Origin: Streptomyces rubradiris | GTDB lineage: Bacteria; Actinomycetota; Actinomycetes; Streptomycetales; Streptomycetaceae | Assembly (NCBI RefSeq): GCF_016860525.1 | Contig: NZ_BNEA01000015.1 | Location: 1,240,001-1,304,000 of the forward strand | Direction of reading: 5' to 3' | Length of the DNA stretch: 64,000 nucleotides | In this document: positions 12,809 through 30,760 of the stretch, in pieces | How positions within the stretch are numbered: the stretch's first letter is position 1 | Layout: each line of letters starts with the position of its first letter | Position numbers and translations under genes: made by a program | The notes under the pieces: model-generated | What the model saw: the letters and a program-made list of their open reading frames with translations, nothing else | Told to the model about the DNA's origin: nothing | Database searches by the model: none

Positions 12809-14287
12809 ATGACTTCCACGTCGACACCGACCGAGCGGACCGGTGCAGGATTGGGCTTACTGGCCGTGCTGACCCCGGCGATCCTGGCCACGGTCACCGC
12901 CAGCGACATGGTCAACCTGATGCTTCCCGCGATCGGGGCCGAGTTCGGGGCCTCCGAGGCGGAACTCGCCTGGGTCGTCACCGGCTTCCTGCTGATGTTC
13001 TCGGTCGGCATCCCCCTGTACGGCCGCGTTTCGGACCGCGTGAGCCTGCGCCGTCTCTTCGCCTTCGCGCTCCTCGCCTACGCCGCCGGGAGCCTGGTCT
13101 GCGCGATCTCCCCGAATCTGGCAGTGCTCGTGACCGGGCGGATCGTGACGGGTGTCGGCGCGGCCGCGATCCCGGTGCTCTCGGTCATCGCCGTCACGAC
13201 GCTGCTGCCGCCAGAGCGGCGCGGTGCCGGGATCGGCGTCGTCTCCGCCGGTGCGGGCGTCGGCACCGCCGCCGGACCGGCGTTGGGCGGCGGCATCGGG
13301 GAAGCGCTCGGCTGGCACGCGCTGTTCTGGATCACGCTCGTGGTCTCGCTGGTGCTGCTGTTCCCCGCCCTGCGCGTACTCCCGGACGAGACTCCGCAGG
13401 GCTCCGGCCGGCTCGACCTCCCCGGCGGCGCCCTCCTCGGCCTCGGAGCCGGTCTCGCACTGTTCGGTATGACCCGGGCGCAGGTCGCCGGCTTCACCGA
13501 CCCCATGTCCTGGAGCAGCTTGGTGGTCGCGATCGCGGCGCTCGTGCTCTTCGGGGTGCGCACCGTCCGTATCGACCAGCCGTTCGTTCCCCCGTCGCTG
13601 TTCGCCAACCCCGTCTACCGGACCGGCGTCCTCGTCGCGTTCCTGGTCATGGCCGTCAACCTCGGCGGCCTGGTGTTCGTCCCGCTGCTGCTGGTGGAGG
13701 TCAACGGGCTCGCCCCGGGCAGGGGCGCCTTGGTCATGATTCCGGCCGGAGTCGTGACCGCGCTCCTCTCACCGTGGATCGGACGCCTCGCCGGCCGCTT
13801 CGGCACGCGGGTCCCGGTGCTCTACGGACTGGGCGTCATGGGGCTGTTCTCGCTGTTCCTCTCGTCCTTCACCGGCGGCTCTTCGGTGATCTTCGCAGGT
13901 GCCGGGATCCTCGGGCTGAGCATCGGCTTCATGCTCGTGATGACCACCATCATCGGCGCCGCGGCGAGCGAACTGCCCCCGGAGCGGATCGGTGCCGGCC
14001 TGGGAATCCTCCAGGGGGCCCAGTTCCTGGGGGCCGGCGCCGGTCCCGCGGTGTTCGGTGTGCTGGTGTCCGCCAGGAAGCAGAGCGGCAGCGACGCCGT
14101 CAACCCCCTCTATTCCGGTCACAGCGGCTCGGCCTACTCCGACGTCTTCCTGGCCATGGCCGTGGTCGTCGCCCTCACCCTGGTCGTCGCGTCACGGATG
14201 CGCCCCACGGCCGGCTCCGGGGCCGGACCGAAGGCCGGGGAAGCCCCGGTGCCCGCCCCGGCGCGGGAAACGAACAACGCCCCGTAG
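12809..14287 (+). CDS. MFS drug efflux transporter, DHA2 (14-TMS) type
   Basis: The 492-aa membrane protein has the MFS pattern. TM1 contains ASDMVNLMLPAIGAEFGASE. A loop-2 motif YGRVSDRVSLRRLF precedes LVTGRIVTGVGAAAIPVLSV and the antiporter motif-C-like GVVSAGAGVGTAAGPALGGG. Many further hydrophobic segments follow, ending with a short cytosolic tail. The proton-driven DHA2 family exports drugs and secondary metabolites. The start is the ATG at 12809; only the weak CGAAGGG lies upstream. It has a plausible operator dyad at 12765-12778 and sits directly behind the Rrf2 regulator, separated by a terminator, so it is probably transcribed on its own. Confidence 0.88.
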   Translation: MTSTSTPTERTGAGLGLLAVLTPAILATVTASDMVNLMLPAIGAEFGASEAELAWVVTGFLLMFSVGIPLYGRVSDRVSLRRLFAFALLAYAAGSLVCAISPNLAVLVTGRIVTGVGAAAIPVLSVIAVTTLLPPERRGAGIGVVSAGAGVGTAAGPALGGGIGEALGWHALFWITLVVSLVLLFPALRVLPDETPQGSGRLDLPGGALLGLGAGLALFGMTRAQVAGFTDPMSWSSLVVAIAALVLFGVRTVRIDQPFVPPSLFANPVYRTGVLVAFLVMAVNLGGLVFVPLLLVEVNGLAPGRGALVMIPAGVVTALLSPWIGRLAGRFGTRVPVLYGLGVMGLFSLFLSSFTGGSSVIFAGAGILGLSIGFMLVMTTIIGAAASELPPERIGAGLGILQGAQFLGAGAGPAVFGVLVSARKQSGSDAVNPLYSGHSGSAYSDVFLAMAVVVALTLVVASRMRPTAGSGAGPKAGEAPVPAPARETNNAP

Positions 14288-14386
14288 GAACGCGAACGCC
14301 CCGCGTCCAGGGGTGAGTTCCGCCCGTGGGCGGGAGCTCTTCCGCCGCGCGGGATCTCACGATCCAGTGTTCCGAGGAGGATCACG

Positions 14387-15134
14387 GTGAAGACCATCGT
14401 TGTCACGGGAGGCACCTCCGGTATCGGGCAGGCGCTCGCACATACCTGTCTCGGCCGGGGACCAAGTCGTCGTCATCGCTCCGGACCTGCTGAAGGGGAA
14501 GAGATTCCTCGACACGGCACAGAAGGCGGGTGCCGCCGACCGTGCCGTGTTCATCGAGGCCGACCTCAGCCTCATCAGCGAGAACTGGCGCGTCATCGCG
14601 GAGATCGAGGACCGGTTCCCGGTGGTGGACGTACTCGCGCTGTGCGCGCGGTACTTCCGCAGCCACCGGATGGTGACCTCCGAAGGGATCGAACACAATG
14701 TGGCGCTGTACTACCTCGGCCGGTACCTGCTCGGATACGGACTGGTCGACGTCATGAACAAGGCCGGAACGCCGGTCGTGATGAACATCGCCGGCCCAGG
14801 TGTGGGGGCGCCGGGCATCCACTGGAACGACCTCGGCCTCGAACGCGGCTACGACGGCTGGACGGCCATGCTCCAGGGCGGCCGGCTCAACGACCTTCTC
14901 GGGGTCTCGTTCGCCGAGGGGGGAAGCACCCGTCGCGCCCGGTACGTACTGCTGTTCCCCGGTGGGACCCGCACCGGTTTCGCGGGCGAATTCGACGCCG
15001 CCACCGCGGCTCACGTCGACCGGATGAAGCGGGCCGCGCGGCCGGTGGAGTTCACCGTCCCGCCGATCCTGGAGATCATCGACGCTCCGCCCCGGCAACC
15101 GCTGAGCGCCGTCGTGTGTGACGCCGATCGGTAG
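14387..15134 (+). pseudogene. Short-chain dehydrogenase/reductase broken by a single +1 frameshift
   Basis: The GTG at 14387, behind GAGGAGGATCACG, begins KTIVVTGGTSGIGQALAH with the SDR nucleotide-binding motif TGGxSGIG. Between about 14430 and 14465 the frame slips by one. The rest continues in another frame as GDQVVVIAPDLLKGKRFLDT, FIEADLSLISENWRVIAEIE, DVLALCARYF and so on to the stop at 15132-15134. The slip is at a CGGGGA run. Either the gene is inactivated by a one-base indel or the base call is wrong; everything else looks intact (about 249 aa if repaired). The usual SDR YxxxK catalytic pair is not obvious, so it may be an atypical SDR. Confidence 0.7.
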
Positions 15135-15196
15135 TTGGCCATCTCGTTCGATAGCCGGCCAGTCCCCTCGCTCCGTGTCGTCTGCCACGGAGAGGT

Positions 15197-15214
15197 CAGT
15201 GGAGTCTGCCACTG
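15197..15214. repeat. Small perfect dyad CAGTGG-N6-CCACTG with a nearby direct copy
   Basis: CAGTGG (15197-15202) and CCACTG (15209-15214) form an inverted repeat, and GTCAGTGG recurs at 15218-15225. The stretch is non-coding and AT-richer than its surroundings. It could be a terminator for the SDR remnant or the end of a lost mobile element; I cannot distinguish these. Confidence 0.35.
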
Positions 15215-15242
15215 GATGTCAGTGGTTCTGCCATGAGGCGTG

Positions 15243-15790
15243 TCAGTAGGTGTTGGCGTCGTCTGCGTCGGTGAGGCGGAGGCTGTATCGGACGTCGTCG
15301 GCCAGGACGGCGGTGCCGTCAGCGGCACGGACCAGGAGGCCGGCGTCGATCAGCCCGGCGACGGTGGCCGCGGTCGGCTCCTCGGGGTCGGTGGAGACGG
15401 AGCCCTCGTAGGACGGAACAGCACGGCCGCGTCCTGGCTGCTGAGGACGTTGCGCTGGAGCGGCCGGTGGTGCTGGTCCGTCGGGTGGCGCCAGGGCTCG
15501 GTGCGGTCGGCGGGGTGGAGCCAGTTCATCTGCCGGTCGGTGAGGACGTCCAGCCGCGGGGTGAGGGTGAAGTGGGCGGGGGCCGTGCGCCGCAGGGCGT
15601 ACGGGCCAGCGAGATGGGGGTAGGCCCAGGCGCGTTCGATGGCGTCGCTGACGCGGTGGAGGTCCCAGCCGAGGGACTCGGCGAGGAAGTCGGCGGTGAG
15701 CGGGCGGCCGGCGTGGGCGAGCGCGTTGAGGAGGGCGACGGCGTCGGTGCCGGGGGCGGGTGCCCGGCCCGAGCCCCCAGGATGTGACAC
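15243..15790 (-). pseudogene. Winged-helix-like protein, frameshifted, divergent from the cofilin gene
   Basis: From the GTG at 15790 a frame encodes TDAVALLNALAHAGRPLTAD, FLAESLGWDLHRVSDAIERA and PAHFTLTPRLDVLTDRQMNW, which reads like a winged helix-turn-helix. Near 15410-15425 the frame changes. The C-terminal part continues as SYEGSVSTDPEEPTAATVAG and LLVRAADGTAVLADDVRYSL, ending at 15243. Repaired, it would be about 180 aa. Its start is only 51 bases from the divergent cofilin-like gene, so they share a promoter region. I recognise no specific family. It may be a regulator inactivated by one indel. Confidence 0.55.
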
Positions 15791-15795
15791 TCCGA

Positions 15796-15801
15796 TACGA
15801 T
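15796..15801 (+). promoter_or_regulatory. Candidate -10 box (TACGAT) for the cofilin-like gene
   Basis: TACGAT fits the TANNNT actinobacterial -10 consensus, 40 bases upstream of the ATG at 15842 and inside the 51-bp divergent intergenic gap. I see no good -35 hexamer at the right distance. Confidence 0.35.
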
Positions 15802-15841
15802 GCGACCACTGTAAGTTCCAGCCCGTCAACGGAGGAACGTC

Positions 15842-16258
15842 ATGTCATCAGGTGCCGCGGTGAACGATCGCTGCGTACAGGAATACCAGGCGTTGAAGAG
15901 CGAGAAGAAGCACAGGTACGTTCTCTTCAACCTCAACGCGGACAATACGGAGATCGTCGTCCAGAAGGTCTCCAGTTCCCCGGAGTACGACGACTTCATC
16001 GCGGACCTGCCTGAGACCGAGTGCCGGTGGGCCGTCTACGACTTCGAGTTCGAGAAGGAGGGCGCCGGGGAGCGGAGCAAGCTCGTGTTCGTTTCGTGGC
16101 TACCGGACACCGCCAAGGTCAAGCAGAAGATGCTCTTCACTGCTTCCAAGGAGGAGCTGCGCCGCTCGCTCGTAGGCATCGCAGTCGAGGTTGATTGCAG
16201 TGATTCCTCGGAGGTTGCTTACGATTCGCTCCTCGACAAGGTCAAGCGCGGGCACTGA
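15842..16258 (+). CDS. ADF/cofilin-homology protein (eukaryotic-type actin-depolymerising factor) in a bacterial genome
   Basis: The 138-aa protein matches the eukaryotic ADF/cofilin fold from end to end. It has the short N-terminus MSSGAAVND with the Ser-Gly that cofilins expose to actin, TEIVVQK (36-42), YDDFIADLPETECRWAVYDF (49-68), and GERSKLVFVSWLPDTAKVKQ (76-95) leading into the long actin-binding helix KMLFTASKEELRRSL (96-110). It ends with SSEVAYDSLLDKVKRGH. Charged positions that contact actin in yeast cofilin are kept: R78 and K80 before the W-x-P-D motif, K103/E104/R107/R108 in the long helix, and D132/K133/R136 at the C-terminus. There is no signal peptide, so it should be cytosolic. 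GGAGGA lies six bases before the ATG. G+C is 60% by hand count over 15901-16200, against 72% in a sampled core line. I infer acquisition from a eukaryote; the cellular partner is unknown. Confidence 0.9.
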   Translation: MSSGAAVNDRCVQEYQALKSEKKHRYVLFNLNADNTEIVVQKVSSSPEYDDFIADLPETECRWAVYDFEFEKEGAGERSKLVFVSWLPDTAKVKQKMLFTASKEELRRSLVGIAVEVDCSDSSEVAYDSLLDKVKRGH

Positions 16259-16264
16259 CCGAGC

Positions 16265-16439
16265 GTGATCGCTGCCCAGGTGATCAGGGTTTCGGAGTAC
16301 TGGACCACGAAGATTGCGGGAACAGGCACGGCTCACCGCGGAGCTGAATGCGGACGGCCACCTCCCGCTCGACCCGAGCAGCGACCAGGAAAAGATCGAC
16401 CGCCTGTCGGTGTTCCACGATCGGCTCACGTCTCTGTGA
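16265..16439 (+). pseudogene. Short gene fragment downstream of the cofilin gene, frame-split
   Basis: A GTG at 16265 opens VIAAQVIRVSEYWTTKIA. After a GGG run at 16318-16320 another frame continues EQARLTAELNADGHLPLDPS and EKIDRLSVFHDRLTSL to a stop at 16437-16439. The two parts read like one small protein of about 57 aa with a one-base slip, or the tail of a larger lost gene. I do not recognise the family. Confidence 0.4.
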
Positions 16440-16499
16440 CCCGAACGCGCTCAACATCCGGTGGCCGCCCCGCAGCGCATCTGCCGCAGGGGCGCGGGG

Positions 16500-16669
16500 T
16501 GGCACGCGGAGTCCAGAGCGAGGAGTTACGTCGTCCTTGGCGGCATGCGCGGCCTGCGCGCCCTGCGTAGCCTGCGTGAGCATCTCCCGGACCACGGCCG
16601 TCAGCTGCCCTGCCAGTTGCTTCTCACCGTGGTAGAGGACTCCCAGGGGGTGAGGTTGACGCCGTTCAC
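16500..16669 (-). pseudogene. Remnant of a small gene coupled to the molybdopterin oxidoreductase
   Basis: Leftward from the GTG at 16669, behind AAGGAGGCACC, the frame reads NGVNLTPWES. It then slips by one and continues HGEKQLAGQLTAVVREMLTQ and ATQGAQAAHAAKDD before losing sense. Small helical proteins beginning NLTPxES that follow molybdopterin oxidoreductase genes are familiar in streptomycetes. The start overlaps the TGA of the upstream fragment (GTGA), which supports translational coupling in the ancestor. Confidence 0.45.
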
Positions 16670-17115
16670 GGTGCCTCCTTCCGGGGGCGGTCCCCTGTGG
16701 CGTCGGGCGGACGCGGTGGTCGTCGGGGCGGGGGCGCTCGTGCCGCCGCCCCGTTCCACGAGACGCAGCCCCGCCACCGCGGCCTTGAACAGCGGCTGCT
16801 TGGAGACCCGGTCCCAGCCGGTGACAGTCGTCTCGTTCGCGGCCCGGCCGGGGCGTCGCCCACGGGTACCTGCCCGCCTTCGGTGTCCCAGTAGTCGTAG
16901 TGGAAGGAGACGAAGAGCAGTCCCCGGCGGATGCCGGTGATCCTCAGCCGTCCGCACCGGGTCCCGCGAGGAGTGCCTACGCCCACCAAGTCTCCATCAC
17001 CGAGCCCCAGCGCGGTCGCGTCGGAAGCGGACGCCTCGCCCCATACATCGGGGGCGGCCGCGTTCAGTTGGGGTGCCCGGGCGGTCTTGGTGCGGGTGCA
17101 GAAGCGGCGCCTGTA
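16666..17115 (-). pseudogene. Molybdopterin oxidoreductase, C-terminal remnant
   Basis: The leftward frame CTRTKTARAPQLNAAAPDVW, LGLGDGDLVGVGTPRGTRCG and LLFVSFHYDYWDT is the molydopterin-dinucleotide-binding C-terminal domain of nitrate/formate-dehydrogenase-like enzymes. Near 16880 the frame shifts to NETTVTGWDRVSKQPLFKAA and VAGLRLVERGGGTSAPAPTT, which is the conserved end of the same family. The large catalytic part is missing to the right, where only non-homologous sequence is found. The gene is dead. Confidence 0.7.
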
Positions 17116-17181
17116 CGAGGCGGGGGCCAGCCGCACCGCTGCCCTACTGGCAGGGAACGGACGCCGATGGCCGGACGCTCC

Positions 17182-17217
17182 CTCTCGCCATGAGCCATGC
17201 TCTCGCCATGAGCCATG
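17182..17217. repeat. Perfect 18-bp tandem duplication
   Basis: CTCTCGCCATGAGCCATG occurs twice in immediate succession (17182-17199 and 17200-17217). It lies in non-coding sequence between the molybdopterin oxidoreductase remnant and the small gene at 17328. It looks like a replication-slippage scar. Confidence 0.85.
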
Positions 17218-17327
17218 CAGATGGCATCCCTCTACCACCTGTGGGAGGCAAGCGCCCTTTTCTCTCGAACGGTTCTTTGCCCGAGCAAGATCAAAGGCGA
17301 CGGCCGGGCGGGAACTGGGCTTCTTCT

Positions 17328-17726
17328 TCATCTTCCGTCCGCGCGATGGGGCGGGGAGGGACGGTTCCAGACGGTGTCTGACCGGCTGACGATCCTTCGA
17401 AGTTCGCGGGCGCTTCGTGGCGATACGGCCTGCATCACGGTGTCGAGGAGGGCTCGGGCTTCGAGAGGGTTGCCGCAGCAGTGCCAGTGCACGTTGCCCC
17501 ACTCGTAGTCGTGCCACAGATCACGCTCGGGTTGCTGGACGTAGTCCTTCCACAGGCGCACAGCCGCGCTGACGTCGCCTGGCTGCAGATAGTTGCGGGT
17601 GTGCTCGAGACGGGTGATCTCGGACAGTGCGCGCGAAGACAGGCCGTCGATGACTGGCCTTGCACCCGTGGTCCGGTGGCCGCCGGGGGCGCCGGCACGG
17701 ATCTGTCCTGGCCGACTACGAGGCAT
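17328..17726 (-). CDS. Hypothetical protein, small, unrecognised family
   Basis: The 132-aa frame contains a coherent protein-like segment: IDGLSSRALSEITRLEHTRN, YLQPGDVSAAVRLWKDYVQQ, DLWHDYEWGNVHWHCCGNPL and EARALLDTVMQAVSPRSARE. It is Trp/His-rich and has no signal peptide or membrane segment. The first ~25 residues after the ATG at 17726 look like low-complexity non-coding sequence, so the true start may be missing and the gene truncated at its 5' end. I recognise no family. The surrounding DNA consists of gene fragments. Confidence 0.45.
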   Translation of the reverse strand: MPRSRPGQIRAGAPGGHRTTGARPVIDGLSSRALSEITRLEHTRNYLQPGDVSAAVRLWKDYVQQPERDLWHDYEWGNVHWHCCGNPLEARALLDTVMQAVSPRSARELRRIVSRSDTVWNRPSPPHRADGR

Positions 17727-17855
17727 GGACCTTTCGGTTCGTCGTCATGCGGTACATGGTGCCACGGCCTCGAATGGGGTCTCGACCGGATTCGCTCGCA
17801 TGGGGATTCACCGGACGTGGCGGCGGCCTTCGTCTGATCACGTGCTCCGCCCAAG

Positions 17856-18130
17856 GTGCACGTGCCCACGACGAAGACCGTGAGGGTGAGTCTGCTGCCT
17901 GATGCTGCCCGCAGGGAAGCGTTCGCGGAAGCGGCACGCCTCCGGGGAGAGTTCTACGAGTGTCTGACCGCTCGGCGTGACGAGTTGTTCGAGCCGGCGG
18001 ACGTGGTGCTGTGTGCGGACGGTGCGGTGAGGTCCCCGGTGGACGTGACGCTGTTGCCCGGGCACCGTCGTGGGCACGGAGCGATGTACGGCGGCCTGGA
18101 GCACGGCCGGATCGACGTCAACCCTCTGAA
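17856..18130 (+). pseudogene. Transposase fragment, N-terminal part only
   Basis: The frame RREAFAEAARLRGEFYECLT, ARRDELFEPADVVLCADGAV, RSPVDVTLLPGHRRGHGAMY and GGLEHGRIDV resembles the N-terminal region of a DDE transposase type common in Streptomyces (the NF041680-like group). Homology ends at IDV near 18120. None of the catalytic DDE region follows, so this is an inactive fragment. Confidence 0.6.
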
Positions 18131-18681
18131 CTCCGGTCGTGCGGCCGCACCTTACGCAAGATCCGACTCCGCCCGGAGAACACGAGATCCCGGCAGCGAG
18201 ACGCCACCGGGAAGGTCGTCCCGACTCCAGAGCAACCCGAAGATCGTGTGCCGCAGACGCACCAACAGCCACCCGGCAGAACCGCCGCGCCGGTGCGCGA
18301 ACCGGAACCCCTGCTACCGCCTACCGCTGTCCCATCCATTACCGCAGCCGTGCCGCGCCCGGAGCAGACGGCCACCAAGAGAACGCGCCTTACCTGGACG
18401 AGGCTCCGGACGACACTCCCGCCCCGACCGGCAGCGGTCCGCTGAACACCCGGCTGGCCACCACCCGCGCACTGTGCGACGAAGGCGCGCACGGACGTCT
18501 GCTCGCCGTCATGCCCAGCATCATCGGCGACGGCACGCCGCTGCCTGTGTCACTGACGCCGGCGTCGGCCGCTACCGAGGGGACCGACGGAGGGCTGGAC
18601 ACACGTGCGACGGAACCTGAATATGATGAATCCCGCGGGAGATAATGCACACGCCGGTACGGGCGACGCCATTGTCTTGGC
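18131..18681. other. Degenerate region with no assignable gene
   Basis: Open frames exist, for example one ending at 18645 that includes GPLNTRLATTRALCDEGAHG and LLAVMPSIIGDGTPLPVSLT. None has a ribosome binding site or a recognised family. I interpret the stretch as decayed mobile-element DNA leading into the next gene's upstream region. Confidence 0.4.
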
Positions 18682-19125
18682 ATGAGGAAGCTCACGGCAT
18701 TCACATCACCCGTCGCCGTAGCGGCGCTCTTCCTCAGCGGTGCCGCCTTCCCCGCGCACGCGGGCCCCTACTGGAACAAGCACATCAAGTGTGAGGCGAC
18801 CGACCCGGACGGCCGCCGGATCCCCACCCGTCTGGGCAACGGCGTGCTGGGCTGGACCCATTTCTCCGGCAAGCACAACATCAAGAAGTGCGCGCTCGTC
18901 ACCATTCCTCTCCGGGACAAGGTTGACAAGGTGGACGGGCACAACCTCCTGTACTGGGGATGGGCCTCGGACCGGGCTCACGGTCGCGTCAAAATCATCG
19001 TCAAGGCCCGCTACGCTCGCAGGACGGACGACAGGCGCTACGACGCCGGAGAAAGGCAGGTGATCGGCGTGATCACCGCGTACTGCAAGGGCATGCGGAA
19101 GTGTCCGAACTGGGTGAATGGGTAA
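18682..19125 (+). CDS. Small secreted protein with four cysteines, unknown function
   Basis: The 147-aa product starts MRKLTAFTSPVAVAALFLSG, then AAFPAHA, a classical Sec signal peptide with a likely cut after AHA. The mature ~120 residues hold four Cys (IKCEA, KKCAL, AYCKG, RKCPN), suggesting two disulphides, and many basic residues. No lipobox, cell-wall anchor or catalytic motif is visible. The ATG at 18682 lacks a clear ribosome binding site. Its end overlaps the start of the following gene by 8 bases, so the two are probably translated together. I do not recognise the family. Confidence 0.65.
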   Translation: MRKLTAFTSPVAVAALFLSGAAFPAHAGPYWNKHIKCEATDPDGRRIPTRLGNGVLGWTHFSGKHNIKKCALVTIPLRDKVDKVDGHNLLYWGWASDRAHGRVKIIVKARYARRTDDRRYDAGERQVIGVITAYCKGMRKCPNWVNG

Positions 19126-19783
19126 CCCGGTGAACGAAGACGAGCGTGAGATCGCAGACCTCCAGGTCGAGGTGGCCGCCCTCCTGTCGGACCACGTCTA
19201 CGCCCCGCTCCTGGAGGACCAGCACGTACGCGGAGTCCTGCCCGCCCCGTCGCAGGCGCCGGCCGTCCGGGGAGTGCTGGGCGACCGGGGCGAGACCAGG
19301 CCGGAACGGCTGACCGCATACGAGATCCCCCTCCGGGACGGCGAGGATCTGCGCACGCCGCACGATGTCGTCGCACTGCTCCGGGCCGCGCACACCGGCA
19401 CCCACATCTACCCGCGCAGCCGGGTCACCTCGGTCATGGGCATGGACCTCTACCTGGTCGACCCGGCGGAGGTGACGGAGGCCCCGTTCACCACGGACGA
19501 CTGGTCCGCCACACTCCTGCGCTGCCTGGCCCGTCCGACTGATCCGGCCGAGGACCGGCACGGGGCGCGACTGCGCGGCTTCCTGTTCCGCGAGGAGGGT
19601 CTGTTGCGCCTGTACATGGACAGCGACGAGGTTCCCGGAGTGATCGCCGCCGACGTACGCCCGGGTGGTGCGCTGACCGCTGTGCTGGCGGCTCTGCCGT
19701 CCCTGCTCGATGAGGAGTACCGGATCTCGAAGGACACGATCGACCCCCACTGTCGGTACGTGGTGGACATCACCGACTGGTGA
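19118..19783 (+). CDS. Hypothetical cytosolic protein, 221 aa
   Basis: The predicted product is acidic, with no signal peptide or membrane segment. Segments such as ADLQVEVAALLSDHVYAPLL, PHDVVALLRAAHTGTHIYPR, GMDLYLVDPAEVTEAPFTTD and RLYMDSDEVPGVIAADVRPG read as a normal folded protein. The ATG at 19118 overlaps the upstream secreted-protein gene by 8 bp. A GTG at 19130 is an alternative start. I recognise no family. Coupling to a secreted four-Cys protein could mean a chaperone, immunity or regulatory partner, but this is speculation. Confidence 0.6.
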   Translation: MGNPVNEDEREIADLQVEVAALLSDHVYAPLLEDQHVRGVLPAPSQAPAVRGVLGDRGETRPERLTAYEIPLRDGEDLRTPHDVVALLRAAHTGTHIYPRSRVTSVMGMDLYLVDPAEVTEAPFTTDDWSATLLRCLARPTDPAEDRHGARLRGFLFREEGLLRLYMDSDEVPGVIAADVRPGGALTAVLAALPSLLDEEYRISKDTIDPHCRYVVDITDW

Positions 19784-20139
19784 CCGCACCGCACTTGGCC
19801 CTGTCGGACCGGCTGGCAGTCCAGCCGGTAGGTCAGCCGCTAGGGTCGGTGCCTTCAGTGGTGACGGACAGGGTCGGGACACTGGCCGGCCACTCCTTGA
19901 GCATGCCCCCAATGCTCCGAGCTGTCCTGGCCTGCTCGGCGCTCACGGCTCGGTTCTCTGTCAAAAGCCTGGGTTGAGCGACCACGGACAACTGCGATCC
20001 GGGGCCAGGGCGAAGCAGTCGTGCGCGAGTCCGCAGACAGACGGCCGAAGACAGGGCGAGGCCGGGTGGGGTGTGCCGAAGCGGATTCCAGCGCGCGGTG
20101 CGAGTGAGGTGCGAGTGGAGGTGGAGGTGTGCCCCTGAC
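19784..20139. other. Intergenic/degenerate stretch, no gene supported
   Basis: A leftward frame (TENRAVSAEQARTARSIGGM, LKEWPASVPTLSVTTEGTDP, ending at 19833) has some protein character but no start signal or family. Otherwise I see nothing to annotate. Confidence 0.4.
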
Positions 20140-22307: not shown

Positions 22308-25300
22308 CTAGGCCTGGGTCGTGTATGGGATTGTCAACTCGTGCTCCTCCAGGCTGCGCAGAACTGCCGTGCCATTCGAAATCTTATTAAGCAGGAACAG
22401 TTCCCGCGTGCGGCAGTCCGGGCACAGGCTGACCACGGCCAATGGCCATAGATCGATCGGGACGCCTGGCGGGGTGCCGTCGACATATATCCTGTCCGGC
22501 CGCAGAGGGTGGTCGATCGGCCGGCTAAACGGCTCCCAGCTCGGGTGGCTCCCTCGTAGCCTCAGGCCCACAGCCTGGAAGGAGGAATCATCGAGGTACT
22601 CACAGCGCTCCACCCAGAACCAGTCAGTGCTCGACAGCCAGTTGACTGAGTTGAGCGCCGAGACCACATACGGTTCGAGCTTTTCGACGTCCTCGTCGAG
22701 TTCGTGACTCCTGCGCACCCCGTGAGCGTGGTGGGAATTATTACGGAGATCCTTGATTTCCTTCAGCAGCGATAGCGTGACGCCGTGTTCACGGAGCGCG
22801 ACGAGTTCCGGCAGCTGAGGCGTTGGGACCTCATCAATGAATCTCTTGATGAGTGTGGTCCAGGTGCCAAAGGTCGCCCCTTGACCGAAAGATTTGCGGA
22901 GAGAGCTGGAGAAGCTCCCGCGGTGCGCAATGAGTTCCTGCAAGGCAAGGACGCCCAGCGTGCGTGCCGTTCCTTCACCAAGCTTGAGCAGTCCGTCCTT
23001 CTTCTCGGCCGGGTGGGTGCTTACGCGGTAACGCCGCGCGAGAGCGGCTACGTGAAATGGATAGCTCGCCTCCGCACGCCACACGGGGTCGTCGAAAGGG
23101 CGCACCAATTGTCCGGCGAGGCGTGCCTCGCGGGCGATGAACCGGATGGACTGACGGATCTCCGCAACGCGTGTCTCGGGGCCGGCGAAGACGTTCGGCA
23201 AGATGCCGTCCGTCGCCATTCGCAGCGCATGACGGCCCTCCTGCACCTCTGCCAGTAGATCCTCGACCTCCGGGGCTGCGACCAACTCCACTGGTACGGG
23301 CGTGTCGAGCAGCTCTCGGGCTTGCGGGTAAGCCGCGTTGCCCTTACGGGAGTTGAGCCATTCACATAGCCCGCGACCGCTCCCCGGGGCGGGGTGCAGC
23401 ACGAACAGCCGAGTGACTGCGTCACCGAACCCCGCAGGCAGAAGGCGCCAGTTACCAGAGCGCCCGACCAAGTCGCCGCCCGTGCACGGTGTCAGTTCGG
23501 AGTCATCCAGTTCCGCATCCGGCAGTTCCAAGGCCGAGTCGACACTATGCAGGTAGGACGCCGTGAGGTGCTTGGGCGGGATGGACTCTGCCTCACCACG
23601 TCGCGGACGGCGCAGCTTGACACGCACTGTCTCCAGCTGTGCGAAGGCACGCAGCGGCCTGAACTCCCCGTCAAGCTCCGCGACATAGAAGAGCGAAGAC
23701 CGGATGGCGCACCCGATCCGGGTCTTCGCATGATCGAGCCAGGCATCTGGAGCGTAGGGCAACACCTCTTTGCGGAAGTATTCCTCAGGATCGTCCCGCA
23801 ACGGCACGACGACCAGGTCACGCAACTCCGGATCAGGTTCCGTCACACCCCGGCGCTGCTGCACTTCTCCTTGGTCATCACGCACCCCGATAGCGTTTCG
23901 GACGCTCCTTTCGAAGGCGGCACCTCGCGGCCAGGTCTGGCCCACGGTCGCGACCGCGTGCTGCAGTGCCGAGAAGGCGTCTGAGCTGGTGGTCCAGGAC
24001 GTTCCGACGAGCCCACGCAGCGCGTCAACCAGCTTCTCGGGGTGGTCCCCTCGTTGGATCGGCCGCAGGGAGGAGAGCTGCTGCAAGCCGTCGGCGGTGA
24101 GTTCGAAGCGCAAGCGCAGCGGGCGCTCGATGACAATCTGCCGGTACAGCAGGTCCTCGTTCCGCACGACACTCACCTGGTCGCGGGGAGACCCGCCGAC
24201 CGGAGCCGACAGCGCCTCTTCGTAGAGCCGGACGATCTTGTCGAGTTGATCGGGGCCGAGGTACTTCCGCTTGCTGCCGGATGACTGCCGCGTCTTCTGC
24301 CAGTGGTCCTGCGCCTTGACCAGGGCCACCCTGCCCCTATGCGCCGACTTCTTGCGATTACTCAGGACCCATAGGTACGTACTGACGCCGGTGTTGTAGA
24401 AGAGTTGGTCAGGCAAGGCGACGATGCCCTCGAGCCAGTCGTTCTCGACAATCCATCGCCGGACGTCGGACTCACCCAGGCCAGTGGCTCCCCCCTGCAT
24501 GGGAGAGCCACTGAAGAGGACCACGACACGACTGCCACCACCACCGGAAGCGTCCACCGGCTTCATCTTCGCCAGCATGTGCTGAAGGAAGAGCAGCGAT
24601 CCGTCGCTGACACGCGGCAGTCCCGCACCGAACCGTCCTGCATGGCCCAGCCCATGCTCGTCGCGGACCTGTTGCTCAACGTGCTTCCAGCTGAGGCCGA
24701 ACGGAGGGTGCGCCAACAGGTAGTCGAAGCTCTGGTCCTTGAAGAGGTCCTCCCGCAGGACGTTCCCGAAGAGGATCTGTCCCGGATCACGTCCGCTCAT
24801 TAGCATGTTGGAGCCAGCGACAGCCCAGGTCTCGGCGTTGATCTCCTGGCCGTACAGGGACACGTGCGCCAAGGGGTTGGCGGTCTCGATGCGCTCGGCC
24901 ACCTCCTCAAGGAGTCCGCCCGTCCCGCAGGCCGGGTCGTGGACCGTGCGGAGCACGCCGGAAAGCGTGAGCTCATGCTGATCGGGCCGCAGCAACAGTG
25001 CAGACATCAGCCGGCCGACGTCACGTGGGGTGACGTGCTCGTCGGTGCCAGTCCCTCCTGCCTGGTCGACAGAGCGCCGTACGAGGTCCTCGAACACAAA
25101 CCCCATGTCGCCGGCGGAGAGGGGTGCCCCCAGGTGCATGGAGACGAATCGGCTGACGACGGCATACAGCAGCCCAGCGTGGTGCAGCCGTTCGACGGTG
25201 CGGTCGAACTCGAAGCGCCGGAACACGTCCCTGACGTTCTCGGAGTAACCGAGCACGTACTCACGCAGCAACGCCACCGAGTTACTCGGGTCGGCGACGA

Positions 25301-25577
25301 CAGCATCCAGGGCGTAGCGACTGGTGTTGAAAAAGGGATGGCCAGAGGCGCGGCGCAGCGCAAAATCCCGGAACGAGTCCGAATGTACACCCTTGTCCGC
25401 CAATTCAGCCGAGGTGGCCAGCACCTCCTGGCGCGTGGGTCCGAGCAGGCAATCCAAGCGCCGCAGTACGGTGAACGGCAATACAACGCTGCCATACTCA
25501 GATGTCTTGAAGTCCCCGCGAAGAAGATCCGTGAGCGACCAGATATGCCTGGAAAGCTGCGTCCTTGAATCGCTCAT
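22308..25577 (-). CDS. HsdM-like N6-adenine DNA methylase with a large C-terminal extension containing a HEPN-like motif
   Basis: The 1089-aa protein has an HsdM-type N-terminal helical domain (QLSRHIWSLTDLLRGDFKTS). The methylase core follows: FVFEDLVRR, SAM-binding motif I DPACGTGG at 214-221, and motif IV. Motif IV reads AHPPFG (His290) where HsdM has NPPF; the codon is CAC, one base from AAC. After the core (GIVALPDQLFYNTGVSTYLW) comes a ~550-residue extension of unknown fold. It includes LLKEIKDLRNNSHHAHGVRR, an Rx4H motif (R945-H950) like that of HEPN RNases, and a CPDC pair at 1052-1055. The ATG at 25577 is preferred because GAGGGGG precedes it. It is divergent from the Pgl operon, and no HsdS or HsdR is present. 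It is probably an accessory of the BREX locus; whether it methylates DNA is doubtful. Confidence 0.8.
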   Translation of the reverse strand: MSDSRTQLSRHIWSLTDLLRGDFKTSEYGSVVLPFTVLRRLDCLLGPTRQEVLATSAELADKGVHSDSFRDFALRRASGHPFFNTSRYALDAVVADPSNSVALLREYVLGYSENVRDVFRRFEFDRTVERLHHAGLLYAVVSRFVSMHLGAPLSAGDMGFVFEDLVRRSVDQAGGTGTDEHVTPRDVGRLMSALLLRPDQHELTLSGVLRTVHDPACGTGGLLEEVAERIETANPLAHVSLYGQEINAETWAVAGSNMLMSGRDPGQILFGNVLREDLFKDQSFDYLLAHPPFGLSWKHVEQQVRDEHGLGHAGRFGAGLPRVSDGSLLFLQHMLAKMKPVDASGGGGSRVVVLFSGSPMQGGATGLGESDVRRWIVENDWLEGIVALPDQLFYNTGVSTYLWVLSNRKKSAHRGRVALVKAQDHWQKTRQSSGSKRKYLGPDQLDKIVRLYEEALSAPVGGSPRDQVSVVRNEDLLYRQIVIERPLRLRFELTADGLQQLSSLRPIQRGDHPEKLVDALRGLVGTSWTTSSDAFSALQHAVATVGQTWPRGAAFERSVRNAIGVRDDQGEVQQRRGVTEPDPELRDLVVVPLRDDPEEYFRKEVLPYAPDAWLDHAKTRIGCAIRSSLFYVAELDGEFRPLRAFAQLETVRVKLRRPRRGEAESIPPKHLTASYLHSVDSALELPDAELDDSELTPCTGGDLVGRSGNWRLLPAGFGDAVTRLFVLHPAPGSGRGLCEWLNSRKGNAAYPQARELLDTPVPVELVAAPEVEDLLAEVQEGRHALRMATDGILPNVFAGPETRVAEIRQSIRFIAREARLAGQLVRPFDDPVWRAEASYPFHVAALARRYRVSTHPAEKKDGLLKLGEGTARTLGVLALQELIAHRGSFSSSLRKSFGQGATFGTWTTLIKRFIDEVPTPQLPELVALREHGVTLSLLKEIKDLRNNSHHAHGVRRSHELDEDVEKLEPYVVSALNSVNWLSSTDWFWVERCEYLDDSSFQAVGLRLRGSHPSWEPFSRPIDHPLRPDRIYVDGTPPGVPIDLWPLAVVSLCPDCRTRELFLLNKISNGTAVLRSLEEHELTIPYTTQA

Positions 25578-26071: not shown

Positions 26072-29000
26072 ATGCTGGAAGACCGGTGGACGACGGTCAC
26101 CGTGTCCGAGTATGAGCACGAGCGTCGTGGTCTTGAGGCGATCCGCCGCCGTCTGCCGGACGAGGAGCCGTGGCGCGCCTGGGCGAACTTCATGTTCACC
26201 GCGAACAGCGGGCACGTCCGTGAGGTCGATCTTCTGGTGGTAGCGCCGGCCGGAGTGTTCCTGGTCGAGTTGAAAGACTGGCACGGCTCGGTCCACGGCG
26301 GCGGCAACGACTGGGTGCAGACCACACCCAGTGGGACCAGCCGTCGGCACGGCAACCCGCTGCACCTGGCGAACCGGAAGGCCAAAGAGCTGTCGGGCCT
26401 GATCAACGGCGTCTCCGGTCGGCCCGCGCACCGAACGAAGATCTGGGTGGGCGAGGCTGTCTGCTTCACCGACGACAAGCTCCAGGTGAAGCTACCGGCT
26501 GCCGACATGAACGGCGTGTTCACGGTCAAGCAGCTGGTGGAGATGCTGGCCGTTCCGCCGGGAGACGCCCGCTACCAAATCACAGCCGAGGCATCCCGCT
26601 TTGTCGATGCAGCCCTGAAAAAGCTCCGTATCGCACCGATCCGCCGCCAGCACGAGGTGGGCTCCTACCTCCTCGATGCGAAGGCGTTCGACTCCGGGCC
26701 GACCTGGGCCGACTATCTGGGACGCCATTCCCAGCTGCACGACCTGGCACGGGTGCGGGTCTTCCTCAGCGAACGCGGTGCCTCGGACGACGAGCGGCGC
26801 TCGGTGGAGCGAGCCGCCGCCCGCGAGGCGTCGGTACTCAGCCGTTTTCGTCATCCCGGTGCGGTACGGCTGAAGAACTATCTGCCGTCGGGGCATCCCG
26901 CCGGGCCCGCCATCCTCTTCGACTACCACCCGGAGACGCTACGCCTGGACGACTACCTGGTCCAGCACGGTGAGGGTCTCGACCTGCGGGGGCGCCTCGC
27001 GCTGGTGCGGCAGCTTGCCGAGACGGTGCGCTCCGCGCACTCCCGGCGGGTCCACCACCGTACGCTGTCGGCGCACGCGGTGCATGTGATTCCGCGCGAC
27101 CGCGGCCCACGCGGGCGGGAGCTCGGCGAAGAGCAGCGCTGGCTGCGTCCGTGGACACAGATCGCGGACTGGCAGATCGGCACTGGACAAAGCTCCAGCC
27201 GCGGCCGCCCACTGACCCTGGCCCCAACCAACGTGACGAGGCTCCATGTCGCGGACCAGGCCGATCCATATCTGGCTCCGGAGCTGAGGATTCCGAAGGC
27301 CGATCCAGTGCGCCTCGATGTGTACGGGCTCGGCGTGCTCACGTATCTGCTGGTGACCGGGCAAGCGCCTGGCGCGAGCCAGAGCGAGGTCATGGCACGT
27401 CTGGAGGCCGGCGAGAGTCTGCGTCCAAGCGCGCTCGTCGACGGTCTCAATCCGGACATCGACGATCTGGTGGAGGCATCCACCGCGTACGAACCAGGTC
27501 GGCGTCTGTCCACGGTCGACGACTTTCTGGAAATGCTGGAGTACGTCGAGCAGGCATTCGTCGAGGAAGTCCCGGGCGGCGGAGACGCGGCTGCGGTCGC
27601 GGGCGGAGACGGCGGTTCAGCCGCAGGCGCGGGCGAGGAAAGATCCGAGCCGGAGAAGGACCCGCTGGAGGCCGTGGCCGGGGACGTACTGGCCGGACGC
27701 TGGGAGGTCGTGCGCCGCCTCGGTACAGGCTCGACCGCGCGGGCCTTCCTGGTGCGGGATCTGGAGGGCGAGCCTCGGCGCAGCGGCGGCCTGCCGGTGG
27801 CAGTGCTGAAGGTCGCGCTGAGCGAGGCCAAGCATGCTGTCCTGGATCGTGAGGCGGAGGTCCTGGGCCGTATCCACAGGGACTCCAGCATCATTTCGCT
27901 GTACGAGCCGCAGCCTCTGACATTGGCTGGGCGCCGGGTCCTGGTCCTGGAGTACGTGGGCGACAGCCGGGAGCTGAAGGACCAGGACGGCAGTGCGAGT
28001 AAGGGGCCGCGCCGCAGGGAGGACACCGTTGCCCGCCAGCTGCGGGACAACGGCCGTTTGGGCATGGACCAGCTGGAGGCGTACGGGAAGTACCTCTTCG
28101 GTGCTGTGGAGCACTTGGAGGCGGAGGGGATCTGGCACCGGGACCTGAAGCCGGACAACATCGCGATCCGGGTCCGCCCCAACGGCACCCGTCAGTTGGT
28201 ACTGATCGACTTCTCGCTCGCCGGGTACCCGGCGAAGGAGATCGAGGCGGGCACCGAGGGCTATCTCGACCCGTTCGTGGGCGTCATCACGCGCGGCTCG
28301 TACGACGGGTACGCCGAGCGGTACGCGCTGGCCGTGACGCTGCATGAGATGGCGTCGAACGAGCTGCCCCGCTGGGGTGACGGATCGGTCACGGCCCGGC
28401 AGACGGACGCGAAGGAGTGGCCGTACCCGCAGCTCGCGGCCGATGCCTTCGAACCGGCTGTCCGGGACGGCCTGGTGGCGTTCTTCCGGAAGGCGCTGGC
28501 CCGGGATGTGAAGGACCGCTTCCCGGACCTCAAGCCGATGGAGCGTGCCTGGCAGCGGATCTTCCTGGACGCACAGCAGACGACGGCGCCGAGCACCGGT
28601 CACGGTGAGAAGTCGGGGCGCGGAGCGAAGGGCGGCACAGACACGGTCGCCGGGTCGGCGGCGCAGCCGCGGATCGGGCGGGAGGACGACGACGTCTCCG
28701 CCGAGCAGGTCCGCGACCAGCAGGCCGAGCGCGCCGACCGGAAGACGCCGCTGTCGGTGGCGGGTCTGACGGTCGCTGCGCAGTCGCAGCTGTTCGCGAT
28801 GGGGCTGAACACCGTCGGGGACGTCCTGGAATACTCGGCGAGGAAGTTCCTCACCGCGCCGGGCATGGGCTCGCGCACCCGGGAGGAGATCCAGCGCCGG
28901 CAGAAGGAGTGGAACGCGCGCCTGGGCAAGGCGGCTCCCGCGCCGCTCAGCGCGGAGGCCCGCAAGGCGGCGGGGCAGGAGCTCTCCGACCTGGAGCGGG

Positions 29001-30760
29001 CGGTCGCGGAGTCGGCCGCCGCCGACGGGGACGGCGCCGACCCGCAGGTGCTGGGCGGCCTGAGCCTGGACGCGCTCGCCGCCCGTCTCGTACCGAAGCC
29101 ATCCAGCGGTAGTGCCCGCTCCAATGCCAAGGAGCGCGAAGCAATCCGGCTGCTGCTGCGGCTGCCCGACGAGACAGGGACGCTGCCCGGGGGCCTGGCC
29201 TGGGTCCGGCAGCGGGACGTCGCCGATGCGGTGGGCCTGACCGCGGGCCGGATTCCGCAGATCGTGAAGAAGGCGCGCGAGCGCTGGTACAAGGACGCGG
29301 CTCTGGGGCTGCTGCGTGAGCAGGTGGTGAAACTTCTGGCTGAGCGCGGCCGGGTGGCCCCGGTGATCGAGCTCGCCGACGCCCTCATCGCCCGGCGCGG
29401 CACCCAGCACGTGGAGCGGCGCGACCGGCGTGCACTCGCCCTGTCGCTGCTGCGTGCGGTGGTCGAAAGAGAGAACTACGACAACGAGTCCCCGCCGCTC
29501 TTCCGCTACTTCCACGCCCGCATGCCCAAGGGCGCCGATCCGGTACTCGGCCTGCTCGCCCTGGATGTCCGGGAGGACGTGGACGGTCCGGACACCCCGG
29601 CGCTGCCCGCCCTGCAGGAGTACGCGCTGAACCTGGGCGTGCGGGCCGACCGGCTCGCGGCGCTTGAGTCCCTGCCGACAGCGAGCACGGTCCTCACCGA
29701 GCTGGACGCGGTGCGACGGCCACCGGGCAGCCTGGGCTGGGACGAGCGGCGGACGGCCGAGATCGCGGTCGCCGCCTCCACCCGGGCCGCGCTCACCCCG
29801 CGGTTGGAGATCTACCCGCGCGACCTGGACCTTGTGCGTGCGCTGCGGATCACCCAGGCCGGCGTGGTCGCCCTGCAGCCGGGTGTCGAGGAGGAGCGGC
29901 AGCCGGGCCTGACGGTGGACGCGCTGCACAAGCGGGTCGCGACCCGCTTCCCCGACCTGGGCACCGATCCGCTGGCGCCGCGCGAGCTGCCCACGGGCAG
30001 CGCCCTGGTCCGCGCCCTGAAGCAGGCGGGCTTCGAGCTGAAACTGGCCACCCGCTACGACAAGGTGCTCCGGCTCGTCCCGGACCGCCCCTCCGGGGAC
30101 GCCACTGCCGGGCTGACCTCGGCGAGCTGGGGTGCCTCGGCTGCGCGCCGCTCGGCCCCCACCCAGTACGACGCGGACGCTGCCGTCGCCGCTGCCGTCA
30201 AGGCTGAACAGCGGCTTACGCACTCGGCACGGCAGGACGGCTTCCGGGTCCTGACCGTGCCCCAGCGGCGCGCCGAGGACGCGGTGCGGCGGCTGGCCGG
30301 CGAGCCATACGGGGCTCGGCCGGTGTCGGTGACCGCACTGTTCGTGGCCGAACTGCGCGGCGTGGTCGGCGAGGCTGCCCGGCCGACCTGGGAGACCGTC
30401 CTCAAGGCGGACGCCGCCGAGCCGGGTAGTCGGGCTCACCAACAGCTGCGCATACGCACCGACAAGGCGTGGGGGCGGGTCGAGCCGCAGCTGCGGGAGC
30501 TGCTGGCGGAGGCCGCTGGTCCGCTGTTGCTCACCGACACTGCGGTGCTGGCTCGCTATGACGCGTTCGATCTGATCGGGCGGCTCGCGGAGGGGGCTCG
30601 GCAGGGCGGCAGCCCGCTGTGGCTGCTCGTCGCCCAGTCCGATCCGGCACGGGCGCCACGGTTGGCCGGGCAGAGTGTCCCGTACCAGGCGGGATTCGAC
30701 GAGTGGATCGTCGTGCCTGACGCCTGGGTGGCACGCAAACACCTTGAGCCGGACGCCTGA
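26072..30760 (+). CDS. pglW: PglW: NERD domain plus tandem protein kinase of BREX type 2
   Basis: This 1562-aa protein starts with a NERD nuclease-like domain (EVDLLVVAPAGVFLVELKDW at 51-70, with the D53/E66-x-K68 pattern). A first kinase-like domain follows in which the catalytic loop reads VHHRTLSAHA instead of HRDxxxxN, so it is a pseudokinase. A second, canonical Ser/Thr kinase follows, with GTGSTARAF as glycine loop, VAVLKV with the lysine, WHRDLKPDN (H689, D691) and DFS. The C-terminal half has a helix-hairpin-helix-like segment (SQLFAMGLNTVGDVLEYSAR) and a sigma-region-4-like HTH (DVADAVGLTAGRIPQIVKKA). PglW is the Pgl-system kinase. The ATG at 26072 with GGGGAG upstream is chosen because the NERD domain starts there. 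It heads the operon and is followed by pglX after 62 bp. Confidence 0.92.
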   Translation: MLEDRWTTVTVSEYEHERRGLEAIRRRLPDEEPWRAWANFMFTANSGHVREVDLLVVAPAGVFLVELKDWHGSVHGGGNDWVQTTPSGTSRRHGNPLHLANRKAKELSGLINGVSGRPAHRTKIWVGEAVCFTDDKLQVKLPAADMNGVFTVKQLVEMLAVPPGDARYQITAEASRFVDAALKKLRIAPIRRQHEVGSYLLDAKAFDSGPTWADYLGRHSQLHDLARVRVFLSERGASDDERRSVERAAAREASVLSRFRHPGAVRLKNYLPSGHPAGPAILFDYHPETLRLDDYLVQHGEGLDLRGRLALVRQLAETVRSAHSRRVHHRTLSAHAVHVIPRDRGPRGRELGEEQRWLRPWTQIADWQIGTGQSSSRGRPLTLAPTNVTRLHVADQADPYLAPELRIPKADPVRLDVYGLGVLTYLLVTGQAPGASQSEVMARLEAGESLRPSALVDGLNPDIDDLVEASTAYEPGRRLSTVDDFLEMLEYVEQAFVEEVPGGGDAAAVAGGDGGSAAGAGEERSEPEKDPLEAVAGDVLAGRWEVVRRLGTGSTARAFLVRDLEGEPRRSGGLPVAVLKVALSEAKHAVLDREAEVLGRIHRDSSIISLYEPQPLTLAGRRVLVLEYVGDSRELKDQDGSASKGPRRREDTVARQLRDNGRLGMDQLEAYGKYLFGAVEHLEAEGIWHRDLKPDNIAIRVRPNGTRQLVLIDFSLAGYPAKEIEAGTEGYLDPFVGVITRGSYDGYAERYALAVTLHEMASNELPRWGDGSVTARQTDAKEWPYPQLAADAFEPAVRDGLVAFFRKALARDVKDRFPDLKPMERAWQRIFLDAQQTTAPSTGHGEKSGRGAKGGTDTVAGSAAQPRIGREDDDVSAEQVRDQQAERADRKTPLSVAGLTVAAQSQLFAMGLNTVGDVLEYSARKFLTAPGMGSRTREEIQRRQKEWNARLGKAAPAPLSAEARKAAGQELSDLERAVAESAAADGDGADPQVLGGLSLDALAARLVPKPSSGSARSNAKEREAIRLLLRLPDETGTLPGGLAWVRQRDVADAVGLTAGRIPQIVKKARERWYKDAALGLLREQVVKLLAERGRVAPVIELADALIARRGTQHVERRDRRALALSLLRAVVERENYDNESPPLFRYFHARMPKGADPVLGLLALDVREDVDGPDTPALPALQEYALNLGVRADRLAALESLPTASTVLTELDAVRRPPGSLGWDERRTAEIAVAASTRAALTPRLEIYPRDLDLVRALRITQAGVVALQPGVEEERQPGLTVDALHKRVATRFPDLGTDPLAPRELPTGSALVRALKQAGFELKLATRYDKVLRLVPDRPSGDATAGLTSASWGASAARRSAPTQYDADAAVAAAVKAEQRLTHSARQDGFRVLTVPQRRAEDAVRRLAGEPYGARPVSVTALFVAELRGVVGEAARPTWETVLKADAAEPGSRAHQQLRIRTDKAWGRVEPQLRELLAEAAGPLLLTDTAVLARYDAFDLIGRLAEGARQGGSPLWLLVAQSDPARAPRLAGQSVPYQAGFDEWIVVPDAWVARKHLEPDA

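Follow-up and report, generated by a model that had tools for sequence, protein, structure and literature searches.

A full-length fungal-type cofilin gene in a Streptomyces genome, its relatives and its possible targets

We focus here on a cofilin of 138 amino acids, P0001, encoded at positions 15842-16258 (+) of the window, the whole 64,000-nucleotide stretch that was analysed (G000:C15:1240001-1304000), in a 9.05-Mb Streptomyces genome, G000. This is a further case, not the first, of a cofilin in Streptomyces. We tentatively read it as a true fungal-type cofilin that was derived from an Agaricomycete, has been passed on patchily and may act on foreign eukaryotic actin outside the cell. It would be unusual for a fungus to have passed a cytoskeletal regulator, still intact, to a bacterium, and this recipient lacks eukaryotic-type actin. 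The question is whether the cofilin is turned on foreign actin or has switched to MreB, and it can be tested directly with standard biochemistry and the Streptomyces structure already solved.

First of all, the gene is complete. Its frame is free of internal stops over all 138 codons, and the product, which an earlier note on this DNA had called a full-length intact cofilin, matches PF00241 (Cofilin_ADF) over the entire domain (E 4e-39, 133.6 bits against a cut-off of 22.4, profile positions 1-125 of 125), this being the single PF00241 match in the genome. The motifs recognized in that note (MSSG, V65-YDFEF, W86-L-P-D-T90, K96-M97, S102-K103 and R107-R108) are in place, as are the residues that it assigned to the F-actin site (R78/K80 and D132/K133/R136). 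The bacterial ribosome binding site that it described, GGAGGA, lies at 15831-15836 (+), five bases 5' of the ATG, and its hand count of 60% G+C is close to the computed 59.0%, which is below both flanks (70.8% in 13000-15800 and 68.9% in 16259-18600). The gene contains no intron and has a GC3 of 0.83. P0001 matched no NCBIfam model at E up to 1 and nothing in PADLOC, and no signal peptide was seen in it by eye. Between 15600 and 16600 there were neither sigma-70-type promoter-like sites (0, with 0.1 expected) nor terminator-like sites (0, with 0.7 expected).

The predicted structure is that of a cofilin. The best of five AlphaFold2 models reached a pLDDT of 83.1 and a pTM of 0.78 (pLDDT 83.1 to 47.9 across the five), and it places the long actin-inserting helix of the ADF-H fold at residues 93-109. 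Foldseek ranks cofilins, actophorin and ADFs as its closest structural matches, with 5ivu_B nearest of all. PDB entry 5IVU, 'Crystal Structure of Streptomyces griseoflavus Cofilin', released on 2017-03-29, is at once the best sequence match (phmmer 1.4e-53, residues 3-138) and the best fold match (Foldseek E 3.8e-18, 59% identity, TM 0.87/0.91), although it comes from another species and differs at about 40% of residues. Because this entry was deposited earlier, a Streptomyces cofilin is an already known kind of protein. NCBI relatives from Streptomyces, Embleya and Kitasatospora, which form part of P0002 to P0077, are likewise named 'actin-binding ADF family protein' or 'actin depolymerization factor/cofilin-like domain-containing protein', names that give predicted function only; with 5IVU, they dispose of the idea that the gene is a lone oddity. 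We found no paper for 5IVU or the Streptomyces griseoflavus cofilin in the open-access collection that was searched, and the titles and abstract openings among the matches listed describe no Streptomyces cofilin. The comparison of predicted structures that the earlier note had called for gives the same picture, since P0001 shares its fold with yeast cofilin (1CFY) and with the thermostable actophorin 7SOG, which we take to be an amoebal cofilin (TM 0.87-0.90, 47-49% identity to P0001 in structural alignment). Both of these proteins come from organisms that possess actin.

Second, the residues expected to touch actin are retained. We compared 12 contact positions, which we take to be the G- or F-actin-binding positions of yeast cofilin, and scored a position as kept if the charge or hydroxyl type was the same. 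For the plant protein AtADF1, published work gives S6 and R98/K100 as actin-contact residues (PMC4944973). P0001 keeps the type at 12/12 positions, as does 5IVU, and the yeast cofilin chain has the same residue types there. Among the fungal-like bacterial ADF-H proteins, a class assigned by sequence that we call class A (21 rows, P0001 included), all 12 contacts are kept in 13 rows, 11 in five and 6-8 in three, members with lost contacts including P0020, P0077 and L006; the corresponding numbers for 55 eukaryotic rows are 12 in 45, 11 in seven, 10 in two and 9 in one. K96 is identical in 21/21 class A rows, and every other contact position is type-kept in at least 16/21. Judged from alignment entropy, however, the contact positions of class A do not clearly appear to be under extra constraint relative to the remaining sites (mean 0.59 versus 0.75, p 0.29), unlike those of the Agaricomycetes (0.21 versus 0.83, p 0.001).

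Third, relatives exist in bacteria but are scattered. Of 306 candidates in the protein search with P0001, 281 matched at E 0.001 or better, and 120 of these were listed. Among these 120, 18 besides P0001 carry bacterial names, from Streptomyces, Embleya and Kitasatospora, at 62-93% identity, the closest being P0002 of S. achromogenes (93%); the remaining named matches listed are mostly Agaricomycete cofilins, led by Lyophyllum at 68%, and many of those listed are unnamed metagenome proteins. A PF00241 domain is present in 18/392 genomes of the genus sample, 13/297 of the family sample and 2/394 of the class sample, samples that overlap and each count G000. Class A accounts for three of the 18 genus-sample carriers (G000, G299 and G024), and thus for 3/392 genomes, and for two of the 13 family-sample carriers (G000 and G420), the other carriers in these two samples being divergent or grouping elsewhere. 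The survey proposed in the earlier note thus finds a gene that is patchy in Streptomyces, Embleya and Kitasatospora. A contig search with P0001 alone confirmed no relative; a scan with an alignment gave three. At the DNA level, four class A genes were examined, each with an open frame across the whole domain; the remaining class A proteins have the full length of 136-142 amino acids. Carriage by phages or plasmids was also considered and set aside, as 50,697 phage records contained no cofilin match and only 2 of 72,556 plasmid records matched, at 37.0% and 27.5% identity.

The phylogeny points to a fungal donor. For the main tree, 72 rows were chosen out of 288 proteins and four solved chains (138 columns); it excludes the divergent class B described below, the bactX rows, plants, Capsaspora, other distant eukaryotes and Modicella, as well as P0022 and the long-branched class A rows P0057, P0040 and L006. 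In this tree, a branch supported at 96/61, a value by which a single class A clade with 5IVU counts as neither established nor rejected, sets 18 bacterial rows (5IVU included) and four metagenome rows together among 31 Agaricomycete rows; a further 19 rows (other fungi, actophorin, P0121 and P0122) split off with 99/83. The Agaricomycete cofilins (Lyophyllum, Termitomyces, Mycena and others), whose branches surround the bacterial rows, are equal in length to P0001, share its motifs and reach up to 69% identity; they differ in that the host fungus has its own actin. Agaricomycete cofilin genes usually have introns. Bacterial class A is on average most similar to Agaricomycetes (mean identity 0.68), then to other basidiomycetes (0.60), ascomycetes (0.52) and non-fungal eukaryotes (0.42). 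Since cofilin is general in eukaryotes, the direction of transfer would be from fungus to bacterium, and transfer from a basidiomycete, an Agaricomycete, into Streptomycetaceae is our best reading of the tree, although it is not proven. The earlier impression that P0001 is closest to fungal cofilins thus holds in that its nearest relatives outside bacteria are basidiomycete; its exact placement is less firm, for although Agaricomycetes were separate from the bacteria in 0/200 bootstrap trees, an AU test did not reject placement outside the Agaricomycetes (p 0.20 on the 138 columns).

One further protein, P0121, the cofilin of Streptomyces sp. WAC05374 (G251; L004:1486-1896, -), falls elsewhere. 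In the main tree its nearest neighbours are a metagenome protein and Dipsacomyces (support 100/94 and 99/88), and four of its 12 contact positions are changed. This position suggests a second fungal transfer into Streptomyces, independent of class A, although a single clade for P0121 and class A was not rejected (p 0.13, in a tree that contained one mislabelled row).

It had also been argued from the intact frame amid decayed neighbours that the transferred gene was kept by selection. Transfer from a eukaryote fits the tree; the argument from frame against decay is, on the other hand, thin as evidence of selection. dN/dS is 0.30, 0.37 and 0.52 for P0001 against three other bacterial class A genes, and 0.53, 0.58 and 0.95 for the pairs among those three. 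The mreB-like genes, recovered in three of the four class A genomes (G299 was missed), gave 0.03, 0.12 and 0.14; these 332-residue genes are presumably MreB, judging by a motif in their sequence. The ratios indicate that constraint on the class A genes is present but weak.

What, then, does the protein act on? In our proposal, Streptomycetaceae would have acquired a single-domain cofilin from a basidiomycete (Agaricomycete) donor and passed it on patchily as a stand-alone gene. The protein may still bind eukaryotic actin and lower filament stability, its putative target being the actin of eukaryotes that the hyphae meet, such as fungi or amoebae. To reach it, the protein would need to be released by lysis or exported by a system that is not encoded next to the gene. 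No export route is indicated, since there is no signal peptide by eye and no shared neighbour at the five ADF loci compared. Six of six ADF-H-carrying genomes examined, G000 included, yielded no eukaryotic-type actin in a PF00022 search; their matches are weak and of MreB strength (28 bits at best for a single stretch, at most 51 with neighbouring stretches), and PF00022 gives matches in control genomes as well, among them E. coli and B. subtilis. We favour foreign actin, with modest confidence, because the contacts are conserved and the host has no eukaryotic-type actin. Against it stand the three of 21 class A rows that keep just 6-8 contacts, the p of 0.29 for contact constraint, dN/dS of up to 0.95 and the AU p of 0.20. 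The search for a link to contractile injection systems was uninformative, as phage-sheath genes occur in 4/4 class A genomes and also in 22/34 others.

The main alternative, which we consider unlikely, is that the captured cofilin now acts within the bacterial cell on an actin homologue (MreB, Mbl or another filament) and tunes wall synthesis or sporulation. An actin-family match of MreB strength in 6/6 genomes and the lack of any sign of export would suit such a partner, as would contacts for eukaryotic actin that are less constrained than in fungi, which is to be expected after a partner change. A core role in morphogenesis would, however, be less patchy than 3/392 genomes of the genus sample, and an MreB partner leaves unexplained why K96 is retained throughout class A and the other contacts nearly so widely (21/21 and at least 16/21 rows).

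It is less probable still that the ADF-H fold serves a non-actin role here, for example as a stress-linked or lipid-binding scaffold, as it may do in a second, divergent Streptomyces ADF-H family, class B, which carries an NLTHDEL-like motif. A class B member is predicted to fold as an ADF-H domain (pLDDT 91.8; TM 0.90/0.91 to yeast cofilin, 1cfy), while only 2-7 of the 12 contacts survive in the 14 class B sequences compared; bacteria can therefore retain the fold without the actin contacts, and a protein related to class B is fused to a STAS domain. P0001, on the other hand, keeps 12/12 contacts, has no NLTHDEL motif, averages 25% identity to class B and lies outside its branch with support 100/100. 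A search with an early-branching class B member gave 78 matches, 77 of which (unnamed metagenome proteins included) precede a single plant protein. Class A, with its conserved contacts, and class B, largely without them, would together offer a natural series for an actin-binding fold losing its partner. We regard as possible, though doubtful, a broader scheme of repeated fungal cofilin uptake (class A from Agaricomycetes, and the WAC05374 gene beside Dipsacomyces), in which an older capture diversified into class B, a bacterial family that shed its actin contacts, acquired fusions such as STAS-ADF-H and functions without actin, and P0001 represents a recent, actin-competent stage.

Class B was observed at L005, L007-L010, L012-L018, L020, L021, L048, L049, L051, L052 and L054, some of these loci lying, by eye, near STAS-like genes. 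The STAS-ADF-H fusion is one open reading frame at L042:9756-10550 (-), and no second such combination was present among the proteins scanned with Pfam. At five of 20 contexts compared there is a small neighbour resembling CBM48/AMPK glycogen-binding modules, one copy of which matched the AMPK glycogen-binding module at E 0.002, below the Pfam cut-off. Two proteins with tandem ADF-H domains in a twinfilin-like layout (L055:1276-2493 and L056:1414-2559; frames of 406 and 382 amino acids) come from one genome (G883) of another family of the same class. Another ADF-H protein, at L045:1483-1875 (G403, genus g13; PF00241 3.7e-28), is by eye nearer to coactosin or Abp1 than to cofilin and is perhaps a separate acquisition.

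A further alternative, that the gene is a recent or repeatedly re-acquired passenger of little function and heading for loss, also seems improbable to us. It would account for the patchy occurrence and the lack of a conserved context, for dN/dS of 0.30-0.95 among class A genes, for the contacts lost in P0020, P0077 and L006, and for a terminal branch that is longer in P0001 (0.072) than in P0002 (0.019). It sits poorly with the four class A genes that are open over the domain, the full length (136-142 amino acids) of the other class A proteins, dN/dS below 1 in every pair and the 18/21 class A rows that keep at least 11 contacts.

The surroundings of the gene resemble, we infer, those of an inserted gene. 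Neighbouring genes were called by simple scoring, which served for viewing them. To the left lies a decayed, SDR-like coding region (SDR by eye) split over two frames at 14387..15134 (+), with open reading frames at 14387-15121 and 14400-15134; 14400-15131 gave no Pfam match, and 14365-15116 matches G079 at 81%, a genome in which the left flank (an MFS gene and the frame-split region) is present at 81-83%. A second left-flank segment (15175..15760), which stops some 80 bases short of the cofilin gene, is found at 88% in G025, and up to 45 bases directly after the stop (16261..16305) recur at 86-92% in seven other genomes among the matches listed; the latter may be the margin of some common gene, now decayed. 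PF00241 is absent from G079, G025 and six of these seven genomes, and the seventh, G046, has its own match on another contig. Since the flanking segments recur in genomes without PF00241, the cofilin gene sits between unrelated fragments. The region had been described as gene debris, which is borne out by the split SDR-like region and by the five of 10 neighbouring open reading frames tested that had no Pfam match, but not by the zinc-dehydrogenase, NmrA and MFS genes farther left or the Pgl/BREX-type genes on the right, which match known families. An operon or conserved partner was sought and rejected: across five ADF loci (class A in G000, G299, G024 and G420, plus G251), the cofilin alone recurs in all, other pairwise matches being scattered and, by eye, mainly transposase-like and dehydrogenase-like pieces.

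Eukaryotic contamination or misassembly, which the fungal-like sequence and a G+C of 59%, below the flanks, might suggest, is extremely improbable because the gene, as the earlier note held, is joined to bacterial DNA, within a 5.8-Mb bacterial contig of a genome that is 100% complete and 0.89% contaminated, and it is further opposed by the lack of an intron, the bacterial ribosome site, the GC3 of 0.83, relatives that lie on long contigs from strains with names, such as Embleya hyalina NBRC 13850 and Streptomyces sp. CB02980, and the solved Streptomyces homologue.

Elsewhere in the window, segments of 17352-18124 occur in many Streptomyces genomes at about 65-95% identity and perhaps represent a widespread mobile or subtelomeric gene, decayed here, and a second copy of 18187-19800, 96% identical, lies on this contig some 161 kb upstream (G000:C15:1095483-1097096). 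The Pgl/BREX-type gene region spans 22308-42896 and holds, by family match, an N6-methyltransferase (22308-25577, -), a PglW kinase with NERD (26072-30760), BrxC/PglY (34605-38504), PglZ (38504-41422) and BrxD (41838-42896), with an open reading frame of 1252 amino acids at 30823-34581.
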